The notes under the pieces were generated by a model. That model was not told where the DNA came from and made no database searches. It saw only the letters and a program-made list of their open reading frames with translations. A stretch of DNA of 27,692 bases, from IMG/VR virus record IMGVR_UViG_3300038696_000114, positions 1-27,692 of that record; one strand, 5' to 3'. The translations under genes were made by a program, and so were the position numbers. This DNA comes from a virus. Position 1 is the stretch's first letter. Every line of letters begins with the position of its first letter. Positions 1-27,574 of the stretch are shown here, one piece after another.

Positions 1-2
1 CC

Positions 3-572
3 GTTGGACGGACAGATAGTCTCGTTGCCGGGACGCTCGACATTCCAGACTTAACGATCAACAGTCGTGGAACTGGACTTGCCGCCGACCTCACGGCGTT
101 TGACACGACGTCTACAAATATTACAGGTGCGCTTGCCGGGACGACTGAATTTACGGATATTCGACTTGCTGGAGAGGGTTTGTTATTAGCAGGTCTATCG
201 GCTCGTGACACAAATATTCAGACGGCCATAGATACAGCCGCCGCAGCGGGCAGCACACTATCCGCCAGTAAATCACCGAGTAGTCTTGTCGGCTCTGAAA
301 TTGGCGGATCAGGTAATATCACCACAGGGTCGGTTACGATCACACCGTCTGGTGGCGTCACACCTTATACATACTCATGGGCGAAGGAAAGCGGGACGAC
401 ATTTACGATCAATTCTTCGACCACGGCGTCACCGACCTTCACTTACGATCCGGGTTCTAATGGGTATTTCAGTGGTGTGTATGTTTGCACAATCACCGAC
501 AGCACGTCTGGAACGGCGCTGACACTGAATATATCCGTCCCTGTGGCAATCTATCGTGACACGCTCAGTTAG
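3..572 (+). CDS. Tail protein, C-terminal part with Ig-like domain (5' partial)
   Basis: The frame is open from the left edge to a TAG at 570-572, so this is the 3' end of a longer gene. The first ~60 codons are Thr/Gly/Ala-rich with short beta-type repeats, typical of phage fibre or tail-tip proteins. The last ~90 residues look like an Ig/PKD-type domain: GGVTPYTYSW, then SPTFTYD, then GVYVCTITDSTSG. Such domains decorate virion surface proteins and probably help adsorption. Its stop overlaps the stop of the convergent minus-strand gene by 3 bp. A TTG at 180 is a possible internal start, but the frame reads sensibly upstream of it, so I treat the gene as truncated by the window. Tail assignment comes from composition and domain type only. 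Confidence 0.7.
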   Translation, partial: VGRTDSLVAGTLDIPDLTINSRGTGLAADLTAFDTTSTNITGALAGTTEFTDIRLAGEGLLLAGLSARDTNIQTAIDTAAAAGSTLSASKSPSSLVGSEIGGSGNITTGSVTITPSGGVTPYTYSWAKESGTTFTINSSTTASPTFTYDPGSNGYFSGVYVCTITDSTSGTALTLNISVPVAIYRDTLS

Positions 573-8580: not shown

Positions 8581-9255
8581 ATGTTGCGACTCTGCGACGT
8601 GCGCGACGGCTTGCTCGAATTAAGGGATGGATCGGTAAACCTGATTGTTTGCGATCCACCGTATAAGAATATCAGCGGCGGGAAAGGTAAACCCGGCGAT
8701 GGATCACCACAGGGGAATATAGGTCCGAACGACGGTAACGCTGGATTGTTATACAATAACATCGAGCCGTATGAATACGCGCATGACCTATACCGGGTCT
8801 TAGCGGATCGGTCGCATTGTTACATGATGAGTAATTTCATGTCGGTTGATCTGATCCGGTCTGATTTTGAACGGGTCGGTTTTAAGACGCACCGTTATCT
8901 GATCTGGCGCAAAGGGAATAAAACCCCGTCGCAGTATTACATGAATGATTTCGAGTATATCATTTTCATGCGTAAGGGTCGAGCGCGTCCCGTCAACGAT
9001 CCGTCCATTGCGTCTATCATTGATATTCCCGGCGACAGTCCGTCCGATAAACAACACCCGAACCAGAAACCTATCGCGCTGATGCGACTGTTAATCGAGC
9101 AATCGTCCGAGCCGGGTGATCTAATCCTTGACCCTTTTATGGGTGGGGGTTCAACAGGGATTGCGGCTCACGCCACGGGTCGGAATTTCATCGGCTTCGA
9201 GATTGACCCTAAGCATTACATAACGGCCTGTAATCGTATCGGTGTCATGCCGTGA
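8581..9255 (+). CDS. Beta-class DNA methyltransferase (N6-adenine or N4-cytosine)
   Basis: 224 aa. Motif order is that of beta-class amino-methyltransferases: catalytic motif IV DPPYKN (25-30) first, and the AdoMet-binding motif I DPFMGGGSTG (184-193) near the C-terminus, preceded by HPNQKP (159-164) and followed by FIGFEID. It lacks the extra C-terminal domain of the alphaproteobacterial CcrM (~350 aa), so the CcrM target GANTC cannot be assumed. No restriction endonuclease partner is seen, which points to an orphan methylase for protection from restriction or for regulation. It starts one base after the TetR-like gene and overlaps the primase start by 4 bp. Confidence 0.9.
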   Translation: MLRLCDVRDGLLELRDGSVNLIVCDPPYKNISGGKGKPGDGSPQGNIGPNDGNAGLLYNNIEPYEYAHDLYRVLADRSHCYMMSNFMSVDLIRSDFERVGFKTHRYLIWRKGNKTPSQYYMNDFEYIIFMRKGRARPVNDPSIASIIDIPGDSPSDKQHPNQKPIALMRLLIEQSSEPGDLILDPFMGGGSTGIAAHATGRNFIGFEIDPKHYITACNRIGVMP

Positions 9256-18765: not shown

Positions 18766-18800
18766 GCTTGGAGCTCCGTCGCTTTGAGTTGTGCGGTCAT
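18621..18800 (-). CDS. 59-aa CxxC protein (copy 2 of duplicated motif)
   Basis: The ATG at 18800 overlaps the pentapeptide gene stop (ATGA) and the stop overlaps the next start by 8 bp, so coupling supports it. Sequence: [19 protein letters not shown], then [11 protein letters not shown], then [20 protein letters not shown]. Residues ~14-32 are identical to the start of the 18069-18302 product. CxxC plus a later Cys could bind metal. Function unknown. Confidence 0.6.
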
Positions 18801-19546
18801 TGGATGGACTCAATGCTTTTAGGCTGGTGAATAGCAAGCCATTCCTCAACCCATTCAAGAGCCATTTTAGACGCAAATCCTCCACCAGTTTCATCGGTCG
18901 GTTTATCACCCTCACGTATCATCGTAAACCACCGCTCGGACGCATCGAACGCATTATGAGGAAGGCTTTCGCCCGCAACCCCCTTAATGTTTCCGATAGT
19001 GCCAATCAGACAAGCGCAGTCGCCGGAATATGTTGATCCATCGACACGCCCCTCACGAAGCGCGGTTGCAACTCCGTGAGCCTCATCGGGATTTAGGGAA
19101 AGAGTCATCCATAGGCAGGATTTGAAGGGTCTTAGGTTCGCGCCGGATAGGTTCGCGTAGAATAGGTTCGCGCCGGATAAGTTCGCGCCGCATAGGTACG
19201 CGCCGGATAAGTTCGCGCCGCATAGGTACGCGCCGCATAGGTACGCGCCGGATAAGTTCGCGCGGAATAGGTACGCGCCGGATAAGTTCGCGCCGGATAA
19301 GTCCGCGCCGGATAAGTTCGCGCCGGATAAGTCCGCGCGGGATAGGTCCGCGCCGCATAGGTCCGTGTCGCATAAGTTCGCGCGGGATAGGTTCGTGCCA
19401 GATAGGTCCGCGTGGTTTTTAATTGCCCACTTGACCGCCAAGCCCAACTTTATCGACTGGTTCGTTTTTTGTCCGCAGTCTATTTCTGCCGTAAATTGAA
19501 CTTCACCAGACCATCGGTTCATTACATCAAACTTAATCATCATCAT
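18797..19546 (-). CDS. Pentapeptide-repeat protein
   Basis: 249 aa. Nineteen consecutive A(N/D/Y)L(S/C)G-type pentapeptides at residues ~46-140 predict a right-handed quadrilateral beta-helix. The N-terminal ~45 residues ([24 protein letters not shown]) and the C-terminal ~105 residues ([41 protein letters not shown]) match flanks I know from phage pentapeptide proteins. Family members such as MfpA/Qnr mimic DNA and bind gyrase, but that activity cannot be assumed here. Three ATGs in a row (19546, 19543, 19540) are possible starts; GGAG spacing favours the last. The 15-bp DNA repeat invites slippage in copy number. Confidence 0.85.
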
Positions 19547-19890: not shown

Positions 19891-20268
19891 TCACCGCCCC
19901 TGAACAGGCGCAGATACCCAAGCACTGACAGCCGTTTCAGTCACATCAAAAACCGCTATGATTCCAGTTAAGGAAACGCGATCAGATTTTGCGCTGATCT
20001 TACATCCACTTGTCGGGCCATTTTCGGAAAGCCCAAAAACGCCACCCGTCGCCTTATCCCAGTAAAGACACATACGCGCATTAGTTAACGAGATAGGGTC
20101 TGCTTTAGGGTTATCTGTATACCCAAAAACGACGGCGCGTTTGTCAGTGCAAACAACAACAGGAATTGGATATGTATTGCTGTCGTTAGGTTGATCGTCG
20201 GCATCACCGACTTCTAGCCCTAGAGCCCTTTCAACGGCGCGCTCGATAATTTTGTCTAGCTTATTCAT
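19891..20268 (-). CDS. DUF6948-like phage protein
   Basis: 125 aa. The pattern VVVCTDKRAVVFGYT, NARMCLYWDKATGGVFGL, ENGPTSGCKIS, LTGIIAVFDVTETAVSAW is one I know from small phage proteins annotated DUF6948, of unknown function. ATG 20268 is preceded by GGAGACAAAG, a good site; a TTG at 20280 is less likely. The stop is one base from the next gene's ATG. Family assignment is from memory. Confidence 0.75.
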   Translation of the reverse strand: MNKLDKIIERAVERALGLEVGDADDQPNDSNTYPIPVVVCTDKRAVVFGYTDNPKADPISLTNARMCLYWDKATGGVFGLSENGPTSGCKISAKSDRVSLTGIIAVFDVTETAVSAWVSAPVQGR

Positions 20269-20304
20269 CTTTGTCTCCAAATGGTCTTGCTTTTTTCACG
20301 CATG

Positions 20305-20472
20305 TCACGATAACCACAATCCGATTATGGCGACTACACTCGTTAGGACACCAAGACACAAAAGACCGAGAGCGCCGTCAAAGTGACCACGAGCGTCTTC
20401 GATGCCTGCGTTTAAAGCGACATAGAATAACGCTAGCGCTGAAAATAAGGCTATGAGAATTGCATAAATCAT
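20305..20472 (-). CDS. 55-aa small membrane protein
   Basis: The ATG at 20472 overlaps the upstream stop (ATGA). Two hydrophobic segments, ~2-20 (IYAILIALFSALALFYVAL) and ~35-54 (ALGLLCLGVLTSVVAIIGLW), flank a charged loop NAGIEDARGHFD, so a two-TM hairpin is predicted. Function unknown; possibly a superinfection-exclusion type protein, which is only a guess. Confidence 0.65.
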   Translation of the reverse strand: MIYAILIALFSALALFYVALNAGIEDARGHFDGALGLLCLGVLTSVVAIIGLWLS

Positions 20473-20801
20473 GGTGTTTCCGCTCTCGATATAAGGTTAG
20501 GGATGTTTTCAGGTAAAACCCTTGGTAGCGTGTTCATTTCAGGTGGGTTCGGTGGAAGCATTGCGTGAGTCACGTAAACGCCATATTCGTATAAATCGTA
20601 ATCAGGGCCACGAAATTTACCGTCACGGAAATAACAATCAGTAAGCCGGAACCCGCCGCTTTCATCATTATACTTTACAGTCAGATCAACAGTTCTCCCA
20701 TCCTTCCAATCTTCTGGTATTTCGGAGATGTGGACCCAAACACCGCACTCAGGAAGCGCGCGCATCTGGTCCACGTAGGAGCCTTGCGGGGTCGTGGTCA
20801 T
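20469..20801 (-). CDS. DUF551-like phage protein
   Basis: 110 aa. GVWVHISEIPEDWKDGRTVD, GGFRLTDCYFRDGKF, and the end GVYVTHAMLPPNPPE fit the outline of small phage DUF551 proteins (W-dG-v..., then VTHWMPLPxPP). ATG 20801 overlaps the previous stop (TAATG). An upstream open extension is Arg-rich because it reads an Ala-rich repeat of the previous gene in another frame, so I exclude it. Function unknown. Confidence 0.7.
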   Translation of the reverse strand: MTTTPQGSYVDQMRALPECGVWVHISEIPEDWKDGRTVDLTVKYNDESGGFRLTDCYFRDGKFRGPDYDLYEYGVYVTHAMLPPNPPEMNTLPRVLPENIPNLISRAETP

Positions 20802-21454
20802 TAGGTGGACTCCGACAATATACGAATAAGAGCGTTTGATTGAGCGGCCCCTGCGACGTTCCGCGCGGCGGCCCATGCGGCGTTCCCTGTGACGTCTCGC
20901 GCGGCGGCCCATGCGGCGGCCCGCGCGGCGGCCCCTGCGACGTTCCGCGCGGCGGCCCACTCTTTATCGACTGGCATATCCCCTGAAATTAAGCGCTTGT
21001 GAAGCGAGACAACTGCGTCGGTCGCGGACTTTCCATCATCATCGCAATACTGGCGCGAGCCGTGAATGTCGTCAGTCAACAACCATATCATAAACTTATG
21101 ATAAGCGGTTGTTAGGTCGACCCCGACTGGAATCGCAATCAATAAATCCTCTGCGAATTGCTGGTTGTCAGGATGTGGTAAAACCTCGAAAAAATGATCG
21201 TGCAGGTGAGCGATCCACAAAGGCAGGCCCGCCACGTTTGAGTATTGTTCGTGGGGATTATCTTCGCTATTAGTCGGCCCCAATTCCGCAAGGTCACGAA
21301 GGACACACCCAACTGCGCATCCAGAAAACGCACCATCCACATGAATGTAGTGACCTTTGACCAACTCATCGGCTATGCGGTGCGCGCGCATTCCGTCGAT
21401 TGCGGCTTGTTTCAAATCCGGGTTATTGTACCAGCTTAAAATATTTTCAGTCAT
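20801..21454 (-). CDS. Phage hypothetical protein with Ala-rich repeat tail
   Basis: 217 aa. The globular part (~1-165) contains AFSGCAVGCVLRDL, GLPLWIAHLHDHFFE, PHPDNQQFAEDLL and IPVGVDLTTAYHKFMIWLL. The C-terminal ~50 residues are Ala-rich helix repeats (WAAARNVAGAAARAAAWAAA). I know similar phage proteins whose tails vary in A-A-R repeat number; their function is unknown. ATG 21454 suits the GGAGAG spacing; ATG 21457 is an alternative. The repeat DNA (about 20848-20960) is a GC-rich imperfect tandem. Confidence 0.7.
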   Translation of the reverse strand: MTENILSWYNNPDLKQAAIDGMRAHRIADELVKGHYIHVDGAFSGCAVGCVLRDLAELGPTNSEDNPHEQYSNVAGLPLWIAHLHDHFFEVLPHPDNQQFAEDLLIAIPVGVDLTTAYHKFMIWLLTDDIHGSRQYCDDDGKSATDAVVSLHKRLISGDMPVDKEWAAARNVAGAAARAAAWAAARDVTGNAAWAAARNVAGAAQSNALIRILSEST

Positions 21455-21620
21455 CATTTCTCTCCATCACTTTAATTGCGTCCTCAATCGTCTGGATGTG
21501 GCGTTTCACGCGGGCGGTGCATTTACAATTCACGCCAATGTGACCATCGCTACACGCGATCCGGGACGCCATTTTATACTCGGCCCGCAACGCTTCGAGG
21601 CGGTCAATGAGGTCAATCAT
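21447..21620 (-). CDS. 57-aa hypothetical protein
   Basis: Begins MIDLIDRLEALRAEY at the TGATG junction with the upstream 24-aa ORF; a longer start at 21635 lies inside that ORF. A middle segment CSDGHIGVNCKC gives three Cys and a His, possibly a metal site, followed by a helix RHIQTIEDAIKVMER. The stop overlaps the next gene by 8 to 11 bp. No family recognised. Confidence 0.6.
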   Translation of the reverse strand: MIDLIDRLEALRAEYKMASRIACSDGHIGVNCKCTARVKRHIQTIEDAIKVMERNDD

Positions 21621-21694
21621 CAGATAACACTCCATAGATGTTCACATGGTCGCTGCGTCTGTTCCGTGTATTCACCTAAATATGTTCTTAACAT
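21620..21694 (-). CDS. 24-aa micro-ORF
   Basis: ATG 21694 has GGGAGACCACC just before it and overlaps the stop of the HTH gene by 7 bp; its own stop shares a base with the next ATG (TGATG). The product LRTYLGEYTEQTQRP ... is short and unfamiliar. Support comes from the ribosome site and the coupling. Confidence 0.4.
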   Translation of the reverse strand: MLRTYLGEYTEQTQRPCEHLWSVI

Positions 21695-21867
21695 GGTGGT
21701 CTCCCGTTTGCTTTATACGTCATGAATTCAATCGTCCCTTTACCAATCGTTAGCGAGCCGTTCTCGTATCGCTGAATGGTCCGCGTCACCTTGTGGAGAT
21801 ACACGGCCATTTCGACCTGTGTTTTACCGAGACGTTTCCGCTCGGCCTTGAATTGCTCAGGGGTCAT
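21688..21867 (-). CDS. Cro/CI-type (XRE) helix-turn-helix protein
   Basis: 59 aa, a single HTH_3 domain: TPEQFKAERKRLGKTQVEMA, YLHKVTRTIQRYENGSLTIG. These are the usual positions of the HTH helices with Q-x-x-x-A and RTIQRYExG. No C-terminal oligomerisation or cleavage domain, so it is Cro-like rather than CI-like. ATG 21867 overlaps the upstream stop (ATGA); a GTG at 21891 is possible. Probably represses phage early promoters, such as that for the minus-strand small-gene block. Confidence 0.85.
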   Translation of the reverse strand: MTPEQFKAERKRLGKTQVEMAVYLHKVTRTIQRYENGSLTIGKGTIEFMTYKANGRPPC

Positions 21868-22043
21868 CGTCGTGCCTTCCATCCTTGCCACACAGCGCGT
21901 GACAGGCCGATCAGGACAGCCGTTATTAGAATACCAAAGAAAGCCGTCAGATAACCGATCAGGCCGTCTGAGGCGAGGTATAGAGCGAATGACGCGGTTA
22001 TTAACGTCACGTCATCGGTGTGAATGTATTGTGGGCGGTTCAT
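21864..22043 (-). CDS. 59-aa two-TM membrane protein
   Basis: Two hydrophobic segments (~11-25, VTLITASFALYLASDG; ~27-48, LIGYLTAFFGILITAVLIGL) and a basic end (WQGWKARR). ATG 22043 preceded by AAAGGACTCACTG, one of the recurrent GANTC leaders. Followed by the Cro-like gene with ATGA coupling. Function unknown. Confidence 0.65.
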   Translation of the reverse strand: MNRPQYIHTDDVTLITASFALYLASDGLIGYLTAFFGILITAVLIGLSRAVWQGWKARR

Positions 22044-22071
22044 CAGTGAGTCCTTTATATGAAACACGACA

Positions 22072-22443
22072 TTATGTCGTCTCGGTGAGCCTGTCAATCG
22101 CTATTTCGATTGCCTGTTTTTTACGCTCGGCGTGAGGATCGTCTGACCACGGTAACATGGTCAACAGCACGTTAATTATTTCGGTCGGTGTGGGGTCCAT
22201 ACCCGGCATAGACGTGACCGGGGGGAGTTCGAGATTACGCATCCAAATAACCCCATTCACTGTGGCTACCTCAACATCACACCCGCTGACTAGTCTGGAT
22301 TGGTAAGCTGCCGTCCTCACTTTCTCCATTGAGTAATGCTTTTGTATATGCGCGAGGGAGACGGTCTGTCCCGGATCGGTTAAATCCTCAATGATCCGCC
22401 GAACACTCCCTGTGAGACTATTACCGTCGATTGAACGTGCCAT
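22072..22443 (-). CDS. Hypothetical protein with MPGM motif
   Basis: 123 aa. N-terminal helices with SLTGSVRRIIEDLTD and SLAHIQKHYSMEKVRTAAYQ could be a winged-helix-like DNA-binding fold, followed by VATVNGVIWMR, a strand-like wing. A proline linker holds MPGM at 79-82, then a helical end. AGAGG lies before the ATG. I do not recognise a family. It shares MPGM with the SSB, the GapR-like protein and the 211-aa protein. Confidence 0.6.
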   Translation of the reverse strand: MARSIDGNSLTGSVRRIIEDLTDPGQTVSLAHIQKHYSMEKVRTAAYQSRLVSGCDVEVATVNGVIWMRNLELPPVTSMPGMDPTPTEIINVLLTMLPWSDDPHAERKKQAIEIAIDRLTETT

Positions 22444-22445
22444 GT

Positions 22446-22733
22446 CTATACCTCTATGAAAAATCGTGTTTGAGCCGTGACAGGACGATCCGTCACGCCA
22501 TGAGCCAGCCAGTAAGATAATGAGCCGTCAGTGCGACGATCCATTCCGTCTACGAGACGCCACGGGTCGAGATTATACTGAACCGCCGTGGTGTCGTAAA
22601 CATATGTCGTGCCTTGTGGATGATCGAACACCCACTGAGCCGTGACCTCTTGGCGTCCAATCCGCTCGGCTAAGGCATGAACCGGGTCGATGCACAGCGA
22701 TGGATTGGACGCATATTTACGGTGAGTTATCAT
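22446..22733 (-). CDS. Hypothetical protein
   Basis: 95 aa from ATG 22733, which overlaps the upstream stop as ATGA; ATG 22748 has AAAGGG upstream and is the alternative. Contains a substituted strand-rich middle (QGTTYVYDTTAVQYNLDPW) and ends TAQTRFFIEV. No family recognised. Second gene of a coupled set of four. Confidence 0.6.
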   Translation of the reverse strand: MITHRKYASNPSLCIDPVHALAERIGRQEVTAQWVFDHPQGTTYVYDTTAVQYNLDPWRLVDGMDRRTDGSLSYWLAHGVTDRPVTAQTRFFIEV

Positions 22734-22921
22734 AATTTCTTGCACCATTTTCTTATTCCCTTTGCGTCCACTCTTTCACATCCGTTAATCATGTAAATCC
22801 TAAACGCTAAAATACCTATATCACCGGACATTACAGTGAAAAAACCATGACGGTTTTCGTCAATCCACCACCCCGGTCTTAAATGAGGTGTTAGGAGTAT
22901 TGCGGCCTCAGAAGGTGTCAT
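22730..22921 (-). CDS. 63-aa hypothetical protein
   Basis: TPSEAAILLTPHLRPGWWID, then FFTVMSGDIGILAFRIYM and a basic end KGIRKWCKKL. ATGA overlap with the upstream gene and GAGG seven nt before the ATG. Compact alpha/beta pattern; unknown family. Confidence 0.6.
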   Translation of the reverse strand: MTPSEAAILLTPHLRPGWWIDENRHGFFTVMSGDIGILAFRIYMINGCERVDAKGIRKWCKKL

Positions 22922-23106
22922 TGTGTCACCTCGGTTATGATAGTCACACTGTCCGGGCCGTCCGTCGTCTCGGAGCGGAATATACGTCCGCGTTCCGATG
23001 TTAACAGGGCGGTATGTGCCGAAGCGTAATCAGGATAGAACCTGATGACACCCACGTCACGGGTCGAGCGGTTAATTCGGATCATATGCATATATTCTGT
23101 GGTCAT
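22918..23106 (-). CDS. 62-aa hypothetical protein
   Basis: TTEYMHMIRINRSTRDVGVI, then YASAHTALLTSERGRIFRSE and a beta-type end DSVTIITEV. ATG 23106 overlaps the upstream stop and follows AAAAGGACTCAGAT, a recurrent GANTC leader that here also encodes the end of the previous protein. Unknown family. Confidence 0.6.
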   Translation of the reverse strand: MTTEYMHMIRINRSTRDVGVIRFYPDYASAHTALLTSERGRIFRSETTDGPDSVTIITEVTQ

Positions 23107-23318
23107 ATCTGAGTCCTTTTCGTAATTTTCATTTGAGTTTCGTTAACGTCATGGGTTTCGAGAAAATGATCCTCGGTCCATGTTCCGGGGTTTATCATGG
23201 ACAACCAATGCCAGACGGGTTTACCGCAATGCGGACAATTCTCTTTAGCAAACATATGGTATGTTTGTGTGTCTAGCGTCAACGGTCCGTCGCAACAGGG
23301 ATATTCACCTATAATCAT
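23103..23318 (-). CDS. 71-aa zinc-ribbon-like protein
   Basis: CC at residues 8-9 and CPHC at ~29-32 (ENCPHCGKPVWHW), with His at 21 and 50, suggest a small zinc-binding domain. ATG 23318 follows AGAGGACTCAGATT, a recurrent GANTC leader. The last codons overlap the next gene's leader and start. Function unknown. Confidence 0.65.
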   Translation of the reverse strand: MIIGEYPCCDGPLTLDTQTYHMFAKENCPHCGKPVWHWLSMINPGTWTEDHFLETHDVNETQMKITKRTQI

Positions 23319-23354
23319 AATCTGAGTCCTCTAAGAGATCGAGCATCTGTTCTT

Positions 23355-23927
23355 TCACACATACTTTCGTTCGATGACGATCCGAAACGGTTCGTCGGCG
23401 GTTGGTGGGGGTGTTCCCCGGAGCAATCCGTGGTCATACAGCACTGTGAGTGTCGGTTCGTCCAACAGTTCGATATGGGCCGTCTGCGGACAGGTGATGA
23501 CCGTGACCAGCTTGCGTAATCTCGGCTCACGACGGACAGTCTCGGTTCGCTGTATCTCTTGATACAGTTCACCAACACTCTCCCACATTTTATTGACCAG
23601 TTCTATGTGGTCATTGTTGAAATTGTAGACCGGGGTGGTCTGTTTCAAGACGGATCGACAATAGACCGGGAACATGGCGAAACCCGTCGCGTTAATTCCG
23701 CTCGGCATTTGGTCTGGATCGTCTAACTTGACGCCGACGAACCCTCGACTGTCAAATACTGAAATCGGTAAATCATACTTGTTACGTGCGTCATTGATTG
23801 TCTTTCTGAGGACACTCGCTGACCCTTCCATAAGGTCTGCCAAACACATAGTATTTGTTATATTATTGAGACATGAGGTGATAATTATCGCCGCTATGTC
23901 CTCTCGATATATATTTCTACGTCCCAT
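23355..23927 (-). CDS. Winged-helix-like protein, first gene of the minus-strand small-gene block
   Basis: 190 aa. N-terminal MGRRNIYREDIAAIIITSCL, then ADLMEGSASVLRKTINDARN followed by the wing-like SVFDSRGFVGVKLDD, which fits a winged HTH (HTH_11 pattern: helix, recognition helix with R-K-x-I, then I..-GxxGY/VxL). The C-terminal ~110 residues are unassigned. ATG 23927 has AAAGA upstream; a TTG at 23948 extends the frame by 7 aa and lacks a ribosome site. As first gene it could regulate the block, together with the Cro-like protein. Confidence 0.65.
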   Translation of the reverse strand: MGRRNIYREDIAAIIITSCLNNITNTMCLADLMEGSASVLRKTINDARNKYDLPISVFDSRGFVGVKLDDPDQMPSGINATGFAMFPVYCRSVLKQTTPVYNFNNDHIELVNKMWESVGELYQEIQRTETVRREPRLRKLVTVITCPQTAHIELLDEPTLTVLYDHGLLRGTPPPTADEPFRIVIERKYV

Positions 23928-24101
23928 AATTTTATCTTTCTGAGTCAAGTTGATATGAGAAAGTGGTTATTCTATCAATTTAAGCATGTCAAACAGTTTT
24001 TAGTATGGTTAATAAATTAAATATCCACTTTTCCCTAATGACTTGGTGAAGAAACTCCGCTACAGCCCCCTTGTGGCTATATATGTAAATAGGATATAAA
24101 T
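23928..24101. promoter_or_regulatory. Divergent AT-rich promoter region
   Basis: 174 bp between the minus-strand block and the plus-strand 24102 gene, clearly more AT-rich than the flanks (for example 24001-24030). It must hold the promoter for the minus-strand block and probably one for 24102. GAGTC at 23942-23946 lies in the minus-strand leader. AGCC..GGCT at about 24064-24078 is a weak 4-bp hairpin. No consensus promoter is clear enough to place. Confidence 0.4.
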
Positions 24102-24927: not shown

Positions 24928-24962
24928 ATGTTATAACATCACATCACGTTATGTTATAACAT
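24928..24962. promoter_or_regulatory. Twin 12-bp palindromes ATGTTATAACAT, operator candidate
   Basis: Perfect 12-bp palindromes at 24928-24939 and 24951-24962, 23 bp centre to centre, about two helical turns. This is the geometry of a paired operator for a dimeric repressor. Each contains TGTTATAAC, close to an extended -10 element on both strands, so the site could combine promoter and operator. Upstream of the acidic-protein operon at 25141. Confidence 0.65.
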
Positions 24963-25009
24963 TACATTTCCATCCGATTAAATAATTGATTAAATGTCAT
25001 CCCGGATCA

Positions 25010-25066
25010 GGACGCTCATCCCGGTGCTGGACGCTCATCCCGGTGCTGGACGCTCATCCCGGTGCT
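25010..25066. repeat. Three 19-bp tandem repeats GGACGCTCATCCCGGTGCT
   Basis: Exact copies at 25010-25028, 25029-25047 and 25048-25066, preceded by a degenerate match (GTCATCCCGG, 24997-25006). GC-rich island inside an AT-rich gap, between the twin palindromes and the start of the acidic operon. Iteron-like; binding factor unknown. Confidence 0.85.
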
Positions 25067-25140
25067 GGTGCATTTAACACTTGCATATTGTGTAACATGT
25101 GTTATTGAATACTTATTGAAACGAACCAAGGACTCAGATC

Positions 25141-25323
25141 ATGACACTTTACCAGAAACTTATGCTATGCAACGCGACTCTTGCGCTCATTGCCTCATTC
25201 ATGTGTTTTTCAGCACTACTTACGTTTGGTGGCGGTTATCTATGGTTAGCGGGACTCTTCATTATGCCAGTGATAAGCGCTTATTCAATCGTCAACGTCA
25301 TTAACCCAAATCGGAGTCGCTGA
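25141..25323 (+). CDS. 60-aa two-TM membrane protein
   Basis: Two hydrophobic segments (~6-28, LMLCNATLALIASFMCFSAL; ~33-52, YLWLAGLFIMPVISAYSIV), then a basic end NPNRSR. Leader AAGGACTCAGATC directly before the ATG. First gene of the last operon, one base from the next gene. Function unknown; a membrane partner of the acidic proteins is possible but untested. Confidence 0.65.
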   Translation: MTLYQKLMLCNATLALIASFMCFSALLTFGGGYLWLAGLFIMPVISAYSIVNVINPNRSR

Positions 25324-25324
25324 T

Positions 25325-26050
25325 ATGTCTTATACAATAGCGCAAGAGACTCTAGGCGGACTCACCGTCACGGTTGAATATGACGATTCCGGTTGTAGTG
25401 ATAATCCTATAGATGATGAATCGGTTGTTAAATTATGCCTAGCAGGCTCATTATCCCATTTAGGTAATGTCGAGGGGACTCGTGATTTAGAACGGGACAA
25501 ATACAATGCCCTTGAGTCAATCAGTGAATTACCAGATTCCTTATATGACGTTTATGACGACATGACGGACTCCCATGTCGTGACGTTGAATAACGCCTTT
25601 GATCGTCACTTCCTTTCATTGCCTGTTTATTGTTACCAGCATGGGAACATAGCGCTTTCAACAGGCTCGTTTTCATGCCCATGGGATTCTGGCATGGCTG
25701 GACTCGTTTACATGTCGAAAGATGATGCGCGCCAATGGTATAACGTGAAGCGATTAAGTAAACGGACTCAGGATAAAACGGACTCCATTTTATCCGGGAT
25801 TGTTAAGAACGTAGGTCAATGGGCCAATGGAGAAGTCTACGGTTGGGAAGTCGTGGACTCGGATGGTGAGACGCTGGACTCTTGCTGGGGTTATATAGGC
25901 GACTCAGACTATGCGTTAAGTGAGGGGATAGACTCCGCTCGCTATCATATCAGGGCAATTAAAAAACGACGAGCCAACCGTCTTAAGACGCTCATACGCA
26001 ACCGGACTCCCCTATCAACACGCGCGCCAATACTGGCAACGATTAACTAA
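25325..26050 (+). CDS. Acidic phage/plasmid protein, DSCWG family
   Basis: 241 aa, acidic for the first 200 residues with a basic tail (IKKRRANRLKTLIRNR). I know the signature from many phage and plasmid hypothetical proteins: LPVYCYQHGNIALSTGSFSC, PWDSGMAGLVYMSKDDARQ, NGEVYGWEVVDSDGETLDSC followed by WGYIG. Function is not established. Leader CGGAGTCGCTGAT before the ATG combines SD and a GANTC site. Co-located with two other families of the same kind, it may belong to an accessory anti-host set; that is inference. Confidence 0.75.
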   Translation: MSYTIAQETLGGLTVTVEYDDSGCSDNPIDDESVVKLCLAGSLSHLGNVEGTRDLERDKYNALESISELPDSLYDVYDDMTDSHVVTLNNAFDRHFLSLPVYCYQHGNIALSTGSFSCPWDSGMAGLVYMSKDDARQWYNVKRLSKRTQDKTDSILSGIVKNVGQWANGEVYGWEVVDSDGETLDSCWGYIGDSDYALSEGIDSARYHIRAIKKRRANRLKTLIRNRTPLSTRAPILATIN

Positions 26051-26061
26051 GGACTCAGACT

Positions 26062-26640
26062 ATGACTCATTATGAATCTATTAAGACTGAATTGACCTCA
26101 CATGTCACTGACATGATTAACGAAGGTTCTATTAATGCCGATAACTATCAAGAGGCTCATTACCATGCTTTTAACGAAGATTATTATATAATCGGATATT
26201 ACCAAGCTGAGCAATGGTTAAAAAAACACGGACTCGACTCATTCGAGGCGATTGCAATTTGTCAGGATTATGAGCGTGACAATTTTGGGGAAGTGTCTGA
26301 TAAATACGATAACGCGGAGTCCGTTGTTAATATGCTTGCGTATGTGTTCGGGGAAGATATCTTGCCTTGCCCGGATTCCTTTCGTGAACTTGTCGAGTAT
26401 TTTGAGTTAGACGACTCCTTATGGGCAAATTATCGAGTCACTTATTCGGTTGATAGTTTAGACCCGAATCCCGAAATTGAGTATTTTGAGGAGGAATATG
26501 AGGCGATTGAATATGTGGGGGAGGAACTCTCACGCCGGGTTCAACATATTGTTGAACACTCTGTTTATACTGTAACGGACTCCGACCTCGCTGACATAGA
26601 AGCGAACGAGTCCACACTTGTCAGAATAGAAAGGATTTAA
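26062..26640 (+). CDS. Acidic phage/plasmid protein, YIIGYYQAEQWL family
   Basis: 192 aa, very acidic (clusters such as EYFEEEYEAIEYVGEE). Signature AFNEDYYIIGYYQAEQWLKK, IAICQDYERDNFGEV and ESVVNMLAYVFGEDIL matches a family I know from phage and plasmid genomes without assigned function. The net negative charge would suit a DNA-mimic or binding-partner role, not shown. Leader AAGGACTCAGACT before the ATG and a second GACTC inside codons 1-3. Confidence 0.75.
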   Translation: MTHYESIKTELTSHVTDMINEGSINADNYQEAHYHAFNEDYYIIGYYQAEQWLKKHGLDSFEAIAICQDYERDNFGEVSDKYDNAESVVNMLAYVFGEDILPCPDSFRELVEYFELDDSLWANYRVTYSVDSLDPNPEIEYFEEEYEAIEYVGEELSRRVQHIVEHSVYTVTDSDLADIEANESTLVRIERI

Positions 26641-26644
26641 CGAT

Positions 26645-27373
26645 ATGACTCACACTCACATGACGACAATTCCATTTATGGGGTTTTATGACACATTACA
26701 TGACTCCCAATATGAGGACGCTATCAATATTATGTTCTCAGATCATGATACCGGATACAACTTTGACCCGCATGGATTAGACCCGTGGAATTATTCAGAC
26801 TCTAGCTATTTTATGGAAGAATATAGCAAGGCATACGTGGAAGAATTTGCAAGCGAGTTTAACCTAAAATTGACATTCGACGACCTATCGAGTCCGCGTG
26901 AATACAATTTTACGACAGATCGTATATTCGCTGAAATAGCAGACTCCGACATTAAACGAGTCTTAGATGGGTTTAATCGGGATAACTTTGCTAAGTTTGT
27001 GCGGTCTAAGTTTACGTCCTATGACGGTTTTATATCTTACTATAATCCTGATTTAAACGAATGGGGTTCGGACTTAGATGAATGGGACCATAACCAAATA
27101 GGGACTATTCTTGACTTTATGGTGAGTGAAGAATGGGGGAATGATCAACATATGGAAGAATATTCTTTAATGGAAGATTATTCCTGCAATGGTTATATTC
27201 ATGATTGGGTATTACATGAGAATGAAGGACTCACACGATTGGTTAATATTCACGACTATTTAGAAGGTCGTAAACAACGGACTCCTTTTACATGGTCAGA
27301 TCATAGGCGGAATCAACGTGCCAAGAATCTAACATTCTTAGACGCGCCATTAGGGAAAGGAGTCCCGGCATGA
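26645..27373 (+). CDS. Acidic phage/plasmid protein, PFxGFY family
   Basis: 242 aa, acidic. Signature TTIPFMGFYDTLHDSQYEDA, YSKAYVEEFASEF, SSPREYNFTTDRIFAEI and KFTSYDGFISYYNPDLNEWG belongs to another phage/plasmid hypothetical family I know, again without function. AAAGGAT precedes the ATG, and a GACTC spans codons 1-3. A basic C-terminal ~35 residues (HRRNQRAKN) follows. Its stop overlaps the next start (ATGA). Confidence 0.75.
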   Translation: MTHTHMTTIPFMGFYDTLHDSQYEDAINIMFSDHDTGYNFDPHGLDPWNYSDSSYFMEEYSKAYVEEFASEFNLKLTFDDLSSPREYNFTTDRIFAEIADSDIKRVLDGFNRDNFAKFVRSKFTSYDGFISYYNPDLNEWGSDLDEWDHNQIGTILDFMVSEEWGNDQHMEEYSLMEDYSCNGYIHDWVLHENEGLTRLVNIHDYLEGRKQRTPFTWSDHRRNQRAKNLTFLDAPLGKGVPA

Positions 27374-27537
27374 TATGGCCCCTAGCATGGCGAGTCTTTG
27401 TGATATGCGTGTTTTTCGGTGTTATGGTGAAAATACATAGGCGTAAGAAAAACCGGGGTAACGTGCCAGCATGGCTTATGTATGGCAACGCGAACGACAA
27501 TGAACCTAGGCGCGATAGGATAGCGCGCAATAAGTAG
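27370..27537 (+). CDS. 55-aa membrane-anchored protein
   Basis: One N-terminal hydrophobic helix (IWPLAWRVFVICVFFGVMV) followed by a strongly basic tail (KIHRRKKNRG, EPRRDRIARNK). ATG overlaps the upstream stop (ATGA) and AAAGGAGTCCCGGC gives a ribosome site that includes GAGTC. Last gene before the terminator. Function unknown; basic tail could contact the acidic products or nucleic acid. Confidence 0.65.
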   Translation: MIWPLAWRVFVICVFFGVMVKIHRRKKNRGNVPAWLMYGNANDNEPRRDRIARNK

Positions 27538-27545
27538 CAGATTAT

Positions 27546-27574
27546 AAAACCCGGCATGAAAGCCGGGTTTTTTT
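27546..27574 (+). terminator. Rho-independent terminator
   Basis: ACCCGGC (27549-27555), loop ATGAAA, GCCGGGT (27562-27568), with T7 from 27568 and A4 upstream. Strong GC stem plus T-run nine bases after the last gene. The A-run makes it partly bidirectional. Confidence 0.92.

Follow-up and report, generated by a model that had tools for sequence, protein, structure and literature searches.

An operon-bounded island of GAGTC/GACTC words in a GANTC-avoiding phage, a possible CcrM-type methylation mark

An accessory operon near the end of the window

The window, the whole 27,692-nucleotide stretch of viral DNA analyzed here, carries close to its end an operon with five ORFs, of which three encode acidic proteins. 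The extent of this operon is matched by an island rich in the word GACTC and its complement GAGTC (Table 1). The operon stands out in base composition (41–46% GC), and its codon use differs too. For P0002–P0004 we found no Pfam or NCBIfam families and no notable PADLOC match, and the AlphaFold models of P0002 (pLDDT 84.6) and P0004 (90.5) gave no informative match in the PDB. Relatives of P0002 are found in phages and plasmids, and P0004 has a relative (40%) in Curvibacter phage PCA1 that is likewise located near terS.

Table 1. Features of the window discussed in the text
Feature	Position	Strand	Remarks
P0001, N6/N4 adenine-type DNA methyltransferase	8581..9255	+	PF01555, 1.1e-31
Two perfect palindromes TGTTATAACA, operator-like	24929..24961	+	upstream of operon
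19-bp tandem repeat, 3.8 copies	24997..25068	+	upstream edge of island
GASTC/GANTC island	25062..27540	.	27 GACTC + 9 GAGTC + 9 GAWTC in 2479 bp
ORF, 60 aa, small hydrophobic protein	25141..25323	+	3 GANTC
ORF P0002, 241 aa, pI 4.9	25325..26050	+	PHROG 6186 (no assigned function); 17 GANTC
ORF P0003, 192 aa, pI 4.1	26062..26640	+	PHROG 10208 (no assigned function); 11 GANTC
ORF P0004, 242 aa, pI 4.5	26645..27373	+	PHROG 37559 (no assigned function); 11 GANTC
Last operon ORF, ~55 aa, basic	27370..27537	+	1 GANTC
Terminator-like hairpin	27546..27571	+	closes operon
20-bp tandem repeat, contig end	27577..27692	+	runs on into contig L015

The repeat at the window end recurs at the start of a second contig, L015, whose end in turn matches the window start. 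There, a second repeat (window 1-107, L015 14844-14966) joins the two, so that each of the two contig breaks lies within a short repeat, and we take L015 to be the remainder of the same phage or of a very close one. L015 encodes a protein matching phage terminase large subunits, with a terS-like ORF preceding it, as well as portal and tape-measure ORFs, read from position and sequence. Since these terS and terL genes follow the window end, the island would lie just upstream of the packaging genes, with about 0.6 kb or slightly more between its end and terS. A third TGTTATAACA palindrome occurs at L015:128, upstream of terS, and the presence of the same palindromes before the island operon and before terS suggests a shared phage regulator. 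The terminase, polymerase and methyltransferase of this phage have their relatives mainly in alphaproteobacterial phages. Elsewhere in the window (18797-19546, minus strand) a pentapeptide-repeat protein, a candidate DNA mimic, is encoded over a 15-bp tandem repeat (19133-19412).

GACTC and GAGTC exceed what composition, codons and proteins predict

The first-pass annotation had reported 16 copies of GGACTC on the coding strand and four on the other at 25130-27365. Exact counting agrees, with 16 copies on the plus strand (positions 25130 to 27279) and four as GAGTCC (26317, 26608, 26890 and 27360). A first-order Markov background, of the kind the annotation had proposed as a check, predicts only 0.59 and 0.23 copies, and thus the claimed excess over random is borne out. 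The same holds for the pentamers within, GACTC being found 27 times against 2.3 expected and GAGTC nine times against 1.4, or about one site per 65 bases of the operon. In all, the island holds 45 GANTC in 2479 bp, compared with 56 in the 39,956 bp of the remainder of the phage (window and L015). The earlier estimate of about one GANTC per 600 bp at 19921-24100 also fits, as the 1-kb bins covering 20001-24000 contain seven.

In the coding DNA of the island we counted 43 GANTC where 11.9 are expected (z 9.9). Shuffling the codon order of four ORFs gave expectations of 3.2 GACTC and 2.0 GAGTC, and shuffling synonymous codons with the proteins unchanged gave 9.5±2.2 and 2.0, against 25 and 8 observed. 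None of 3000 shuffles of these two kinds matched the observed count of GACTC, GAGTC or GGACTC, which rules out codon or amino-acid preference as the cause, as had been argued from the sites' occurrence in every codon frame and between genes. Indeed, GACTC is enriched in all three codon phases (12/5/8 against 2.5/0.19/0.44), and three island sites are intergenic. The island ORFs encode 17 Asp-Ser dipeptides where 5.7 are expected, compared with 11 against 21 in 14 other window genes, and the nucleotide word therefore appears to have shaped the proteins. The tandem repeats were rejected as a source of the sites, whose flanks are distinct. Four other words (CAAGG, ACAGG, GGAAGT and ACTGCA) formed islands at first sight but failed a codon-aware scan; CCWGG (in locus L141), CAATTG and AAGCTC passed it, but in unrelated phages.

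The word is an exact double-stranded pentamer

GACTC and GAGTC are a single double-stranded word (GASTC), a subset of GANTC. A G precedes the pentamer at 20 of the 36 GACTC/GAGTC sites in the window phage, and this preference is much smaller in Ruegeria phage DSS3-P1 (34% at 66% GC), for which reason we consider the pentamer to be the general unit. The GGACTC described earlier is thus truly enriched but is not itself the unit. None of the one-mismatch neighbours of GACTC is enriched in the island. The pattern suits exact recognition better than degenerate binding, and a transcription factor site with degenerate neighbours was rejected on these grounds. The spacing of the sites is random, with a 10.5-bp amplitude of 0.057 against a random mean of 0.070 and hence no helical phasing.

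The coding strand accounts for the raw strand bias. The ratio of GACTC to GAGTC is 25:8, compared with 9.5:2.0 under the synonymous null (P=0.25), and that of GGACTC to GAGTCC is 14:4, compared with 2.4:0.7 (P=1), so that fold-enrichment is equal on both strands. The contention that the bias argued for more than symmetric methylation accordingly falls away once coding is allowed for, and a Chi-like or other oriented signal was likewise rejected. The strand result also bears on a signal at the level of RNA, in which GACUC/GAGUC in the operon mRNA would be the target of an RNase or regulator that recognizes the word and cuts or binds it. Such a signal would be in keeping with the position of nearly all sites within the presumed transcription unit and with the terminator-like hairpin, but both strands are enriched to the same degree, also for the word extended by a 5' G, as for double-stranded DNA, and an Rfam search returned no family above the cut-off. 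We regard this as the least probable of the explanations considered here.

The remainder of the phage avoids GANTC and encodes a methyltransferase

Outside the island, the window phage has 15 GAWTC where 135 are expected and 41 GASTC where 76 are expected. GANTC is likewise avoided in host genomes (PMC3973325) and in some pelagiphages (PMC9516812). Over window 1-24990 and L015 we also found GTAC 5 times against 131 expected, CCWGG once against 45, GACATC once against 33, and no GGATCC; CGATCG, ACCGGC and AGATCC are very strongly avoided as well. The avoidance of GTAC, CCWGG, GAWTC and other words points to heavy restriction pressure on this phage. The island, like the remainder of its phage, lacks GTAC and CCWGG.

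The methyltransferase P0001 has the catalytic DPPY motif and belongs to the N6_N4_Mtase family. Its best phage relatives are the methyltransferases of vB_OspM_OC, DSS3-P1 and pCB2051-A (41-43%; 41% over 95% for vB_OspM_OC). The vB_OspM_OC enzyme (PhiOC_p213) makes DNA resistant to HinfI and hence methylates GANTC; the DSS3-P1 and pCB2051-A enzymes have been grouped with it (PMC7139368). P0001 matches the NCBIfam CcrM model only far below the model cut-off, and stands closest to the phage methyltransferases of CcrM (GANTC) specificity.

Islands of the same kind in other phages

The strongest comparison case is DSS3-P1, which was fetched for its methyltransferase and not for its base composition. 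Across its genes 01-12, GACTC occurs 22 times against 4.2 expected, GAGTC 19 times against 1.7 and GGACTC 8 times against 1.4, and the dipeptides Asp-Ser (12 against 5.2) and Glu-Ser (15 against 4.7) are in excess, while site counts in genes 13-25 and in the structural genes are at expectation. Ruegeria phage V16 has the same GASTC island by the same test, and V18 has it by site density.

A second group consists of Erythrobacter phage L02, Ruegeria phage V10, RpAliso and Sphingobium phage Lacusarx, in whose cores the ratio of observed to expected sites is 0.20-0.33 for GASTC and 0.37-0.54 for GAWTC. This avoidance is released in the terminal region, which bears a relative of P0002. In the terminal-region coding DNA of V10 we counted 39 GANTC against 8.0±2.6 expected, with a core of about 2 per kb, and the GANTC island of DSS3P8 resembles that of V10. 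The two share 97.4% of GANTC positions, compared with 92.5% for other symmetric words, which is weak evidence because the genomes are 97.5% identical. We detected no P0001 homolog in V10 and others, within the parts of the genomes fetched.

Sharp, bounded GANTC islands are also present in three uncultured contigs (G010, G011 and G012), and GANTC is enriched in locus L184 and in a Mesorhizobium locus too. In 9/9 loci tested GANTC ranks first of 16 symmetric words, and in nine loci the one-mismatch neighbours are flat (0.81-0.98x). The z-scores of G010-G012, L184 and the Mesorhizobium locus are somewhat inflated, as these were noticed for their GANTC richness; DSS3-P1, V10, RpAliso and L02 were chosen without regard to it. 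In summary, the same kind of island lies over unrelated operons, mostly in phages with known alphaproteobacterial hosts.

Not every such phage has one. Mesorhizobium phage Cp1R7A-A1, the prophage-like loci L182 and L191, and RcDurkin, all GANTC-poor and with homologous genes, have no island, and pCB2051-A shows just a 1-kb GANTC peak. RcDurkin has almost no GANTC anywhere; across 48.6 kb of this Rhodobacter phage (46-94.6 kb) we found 0 GAWTC against 123 expected and 5 GASTC against 87, an extreme purge of CcrM sites. Dense CCWGG, up to 33 per kb, occurs near P0002 relatives in two other loci (L205, with G005 and L141, at 5-12.6 kb, and L228, with G013 and L105, at kb 6-11); the window phage, DSS3P8, G010 and G012 have almost none of this word.

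The island belongs to the DNA context and not to a gene family

The first-pass annotation had proposed comparing homologous operons of related phages for conservation of GGACTC. Neither the closest homologous operon, in PCA1, nor 160 further viral loci with relatives of P0002 or P0004 has a GASTC island of the density seen in the window, which speaks against conservation along with the acidic proteins; the densest homologous locus after the window has 17 GASTC per 2.5 kb, compared with 36. In 18 relatives of gene 12 from DSS3-P1, picked without regard to composition, GANTC is avoided (O/E 0.48). The gene content common to islands is mainly relatives of P0002 and P0004, which were themselves the search bait, and a tie to one gene family was rejected because none of the genes in the DSS3-P1 island is homologous to a window ORF. 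As homologous operons elsewhere are usually without an island, the signal belongs to the DNA context, and the island is a property of particular phages rather than of genes.

These comparisons also bear on the possibility that the island has no function and that the operon is a cassette taken up from a donor whose genome is simply rich in GACTC. The divergent GC content and codon use of the operon and the tandem repeats on both its flanks would agree with such an origin. Nevertheless, we found no donor of such density, the next homologous locus falling well short, the same signature covers unrelated genes at 43% and 66% GC, and the island shares the absence of GTAC and CCWGG with its phage. 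A donor cassette is thus disfavoured, and we consider it very unlikely.

A CcrM-type methylation mark and its rivals

We tentatively favour, with somewhat less than even confidence, a reading in which selection has built up, at the level of DNA, an array of CcrM-type methylation sites that marks an accessory operon. Its support, better than that of any other reading, comes from the site itself, the phage methyltransferase and the recurrence of islands in phages of CcrM-bearing lineages. In a phage that otherwise avoids GANTC, such sites, here nearly all GAGTC/GACTC, are scattered over an accessory operon; they would be methylated by P0001 and/or the host CcrM, and the density of methylation would mark the operon, its state controlling expression or handling. 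As the sites are randomly spaced and unphased, density and not spacing would be read. The mark might distinguish packaged, injected and newly replicated DNA. The first-pass annotation had proposed a DNA- or RNA-level signal independent of codon frame, with a link to CcrM; a DNA-level signal is supported by the shuffles, and the link by the islands of alphaproteobacterial phages and the relatives of P0001, whereas its argument from strand bias is not. A decoy cassette, which it had also suggested, is not supported: nothing speaks for a restriction decoy, and an unmodified 45-site target would be self-destructive.

Some observations count against the CcrM reading. Islands are missing from several GANTC-poor phages that carry homologous genes and from the gene 12 relatives, V10 and others yielded no P0001 homolog in the parts fetched, some comparison loci were picked for their GANTC richness, and GAWTC is not above chance in the window (9 against 6.5 expected, compared with 34 against 5.5 for GASTC), although CcrM is indifferent to the middle base of GANTC. 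Island GAWTC is nevertheless about 10-fold above the phage's own background, and the middle base makes no difference in V10 and G012. The main rival is therefore that the asymmetric GAGTC/GACTC is itself recognized, the island offering an array of targets to a methylase, nickase or binding protein that is specific for GAGTC and comes from phage or host, since a middle-base preference in the window and DSS3-P1 (GASTC 41/5.9, GAWTC 11/6.8 in genes 01-12) is not expected of CcrM. Enzymes of the PleI/MlyI/BstNBI type do recognize this word, GASTC is one double-stranded word, and it alone is clearly enriched in the window and in DSS3-P1/V16. On the other hand, V10, G010, G012, L184 and L02 are enriched for GAWTC as well, the phage has no identified GAGTC enzyme, and the relative of P0001 methylates GANTC (PMC7139368). 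On balance we judge a GAGTC-specific reader to be unlikely.

Alternatively, a host protein could read methylated GANTC, with the sites recruiting GcrA and RNA polymerase or keeping the silencer MucR off the operon. Methylated GANTC is bound by GcrA, whose ChIP peaks are rich in the site (PMC3667746), and MucR and CcrM compete at GANTC (PMC5172544). In L02, 70% of the island sites match the GcrA consensus YGAKTCK, and repeated promoter-like units with GAATC would suit such a reader: about 20 similar units, TTGACGAATCACTTGGAC...AACGAATCATCGG...AAGGAGACA, stand ahead of terminal-region genes of vB_EliS-L02 (135517-150063), and the majority of them contain two GAATC. (GTTAAC, too, is in excess in this stretch, 42 against 1.5.) However, the window sites are mostly inside ORFs and only 4/45 fit YGAKTCK (0.09 against 0.25 for random flanks; consensus from PMC7987155), which disfavours GcrA activation there, and the DSS3-P1 island at 66% GC is unlike an AT-rich silencer target. 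A GcrA or MucR reader is in our view quite unlikely.

Lastly, the island could be a methylation-dependent packaging or terminus mark that tells the terminase which DNA to cut, or when. The short distance to terS, the phage's own methyltransferase and the location of the large phages' islands in the terminal region after terL are consistent with this, but an island comprises 2.3-10 kb of coding DNA, far beyond the size of a pac site, terS of DSS3-P1 lies ~36 kb away in the record, and the P0004-bearing operon of PCA1 near terS has no island. We consider a packaging mark highly improbable.

A broader form of the CcrM-type reading would be that phages of CcrM-bearing bacteria purge GANTC from the remainder of the genome and saturate one accessory operon with it as a methylation-density mark, at a cost in protein sequence, the operon thereby being set apart when host and phage methylate GANTC. 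This generalization is possible, though we hold it to be doubtful. If true, phage coding DNA would contain an epigenetic address on the scale of kilobases. Because islands recur in culturable Ruegeria phages (DSS3-P1, V16, V18, V10 and DSS3P8), the role of methylation in infection is directly testable, the question being what methylation does while phages infect CcrM-bearing bacteria.

Comparison with known systems

In the literature searched we found no description of such recurrent GANTC islands over accessory phage operons, nor of phage genes in which a methylation site is under positive selection strong enough to alter dipeptides. Avoidance of restriction and methylation sites in phages, by contrast, is textbook knowledge. 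Taken together, the sequences show islands of CcrM-type sites that recur over accessory operons of phages, and they point to an undescribed DNA-level signal.

The CcrM/GANTC system and the phage CcrM-like methyltransferases, such as that of vB_OspM_OC, share the site family with the island, and P0001 is related to these enzymes. The known signals of the CcrM system consist in avoidance of the site or in one or a few copies of it, often between genes, whereas the window has a kilobase-scale excess within coding DNA, restricted to the GAGTC/GACTC form. The helically phased spacing of a SeqA-like cluster is absent here. HIP1, uptake sequences and Chi are words over-represented genome-wide; they resemble the island in that an exact short word is enriched across codon frames, but the window word is confined to one operon and belongs to a family that the rest of the genome avoids. 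The pac site of phage P1, ~160 bp with clustered Dam sites in a phage with its own Dam methyltransferase, is similar in that the window phage also combines its own methyltransferase with a local site cluster near terS. It differs in that the window island spans 2.3 kb of ORFs and that of DSS3-P1 is far from terS in the record.
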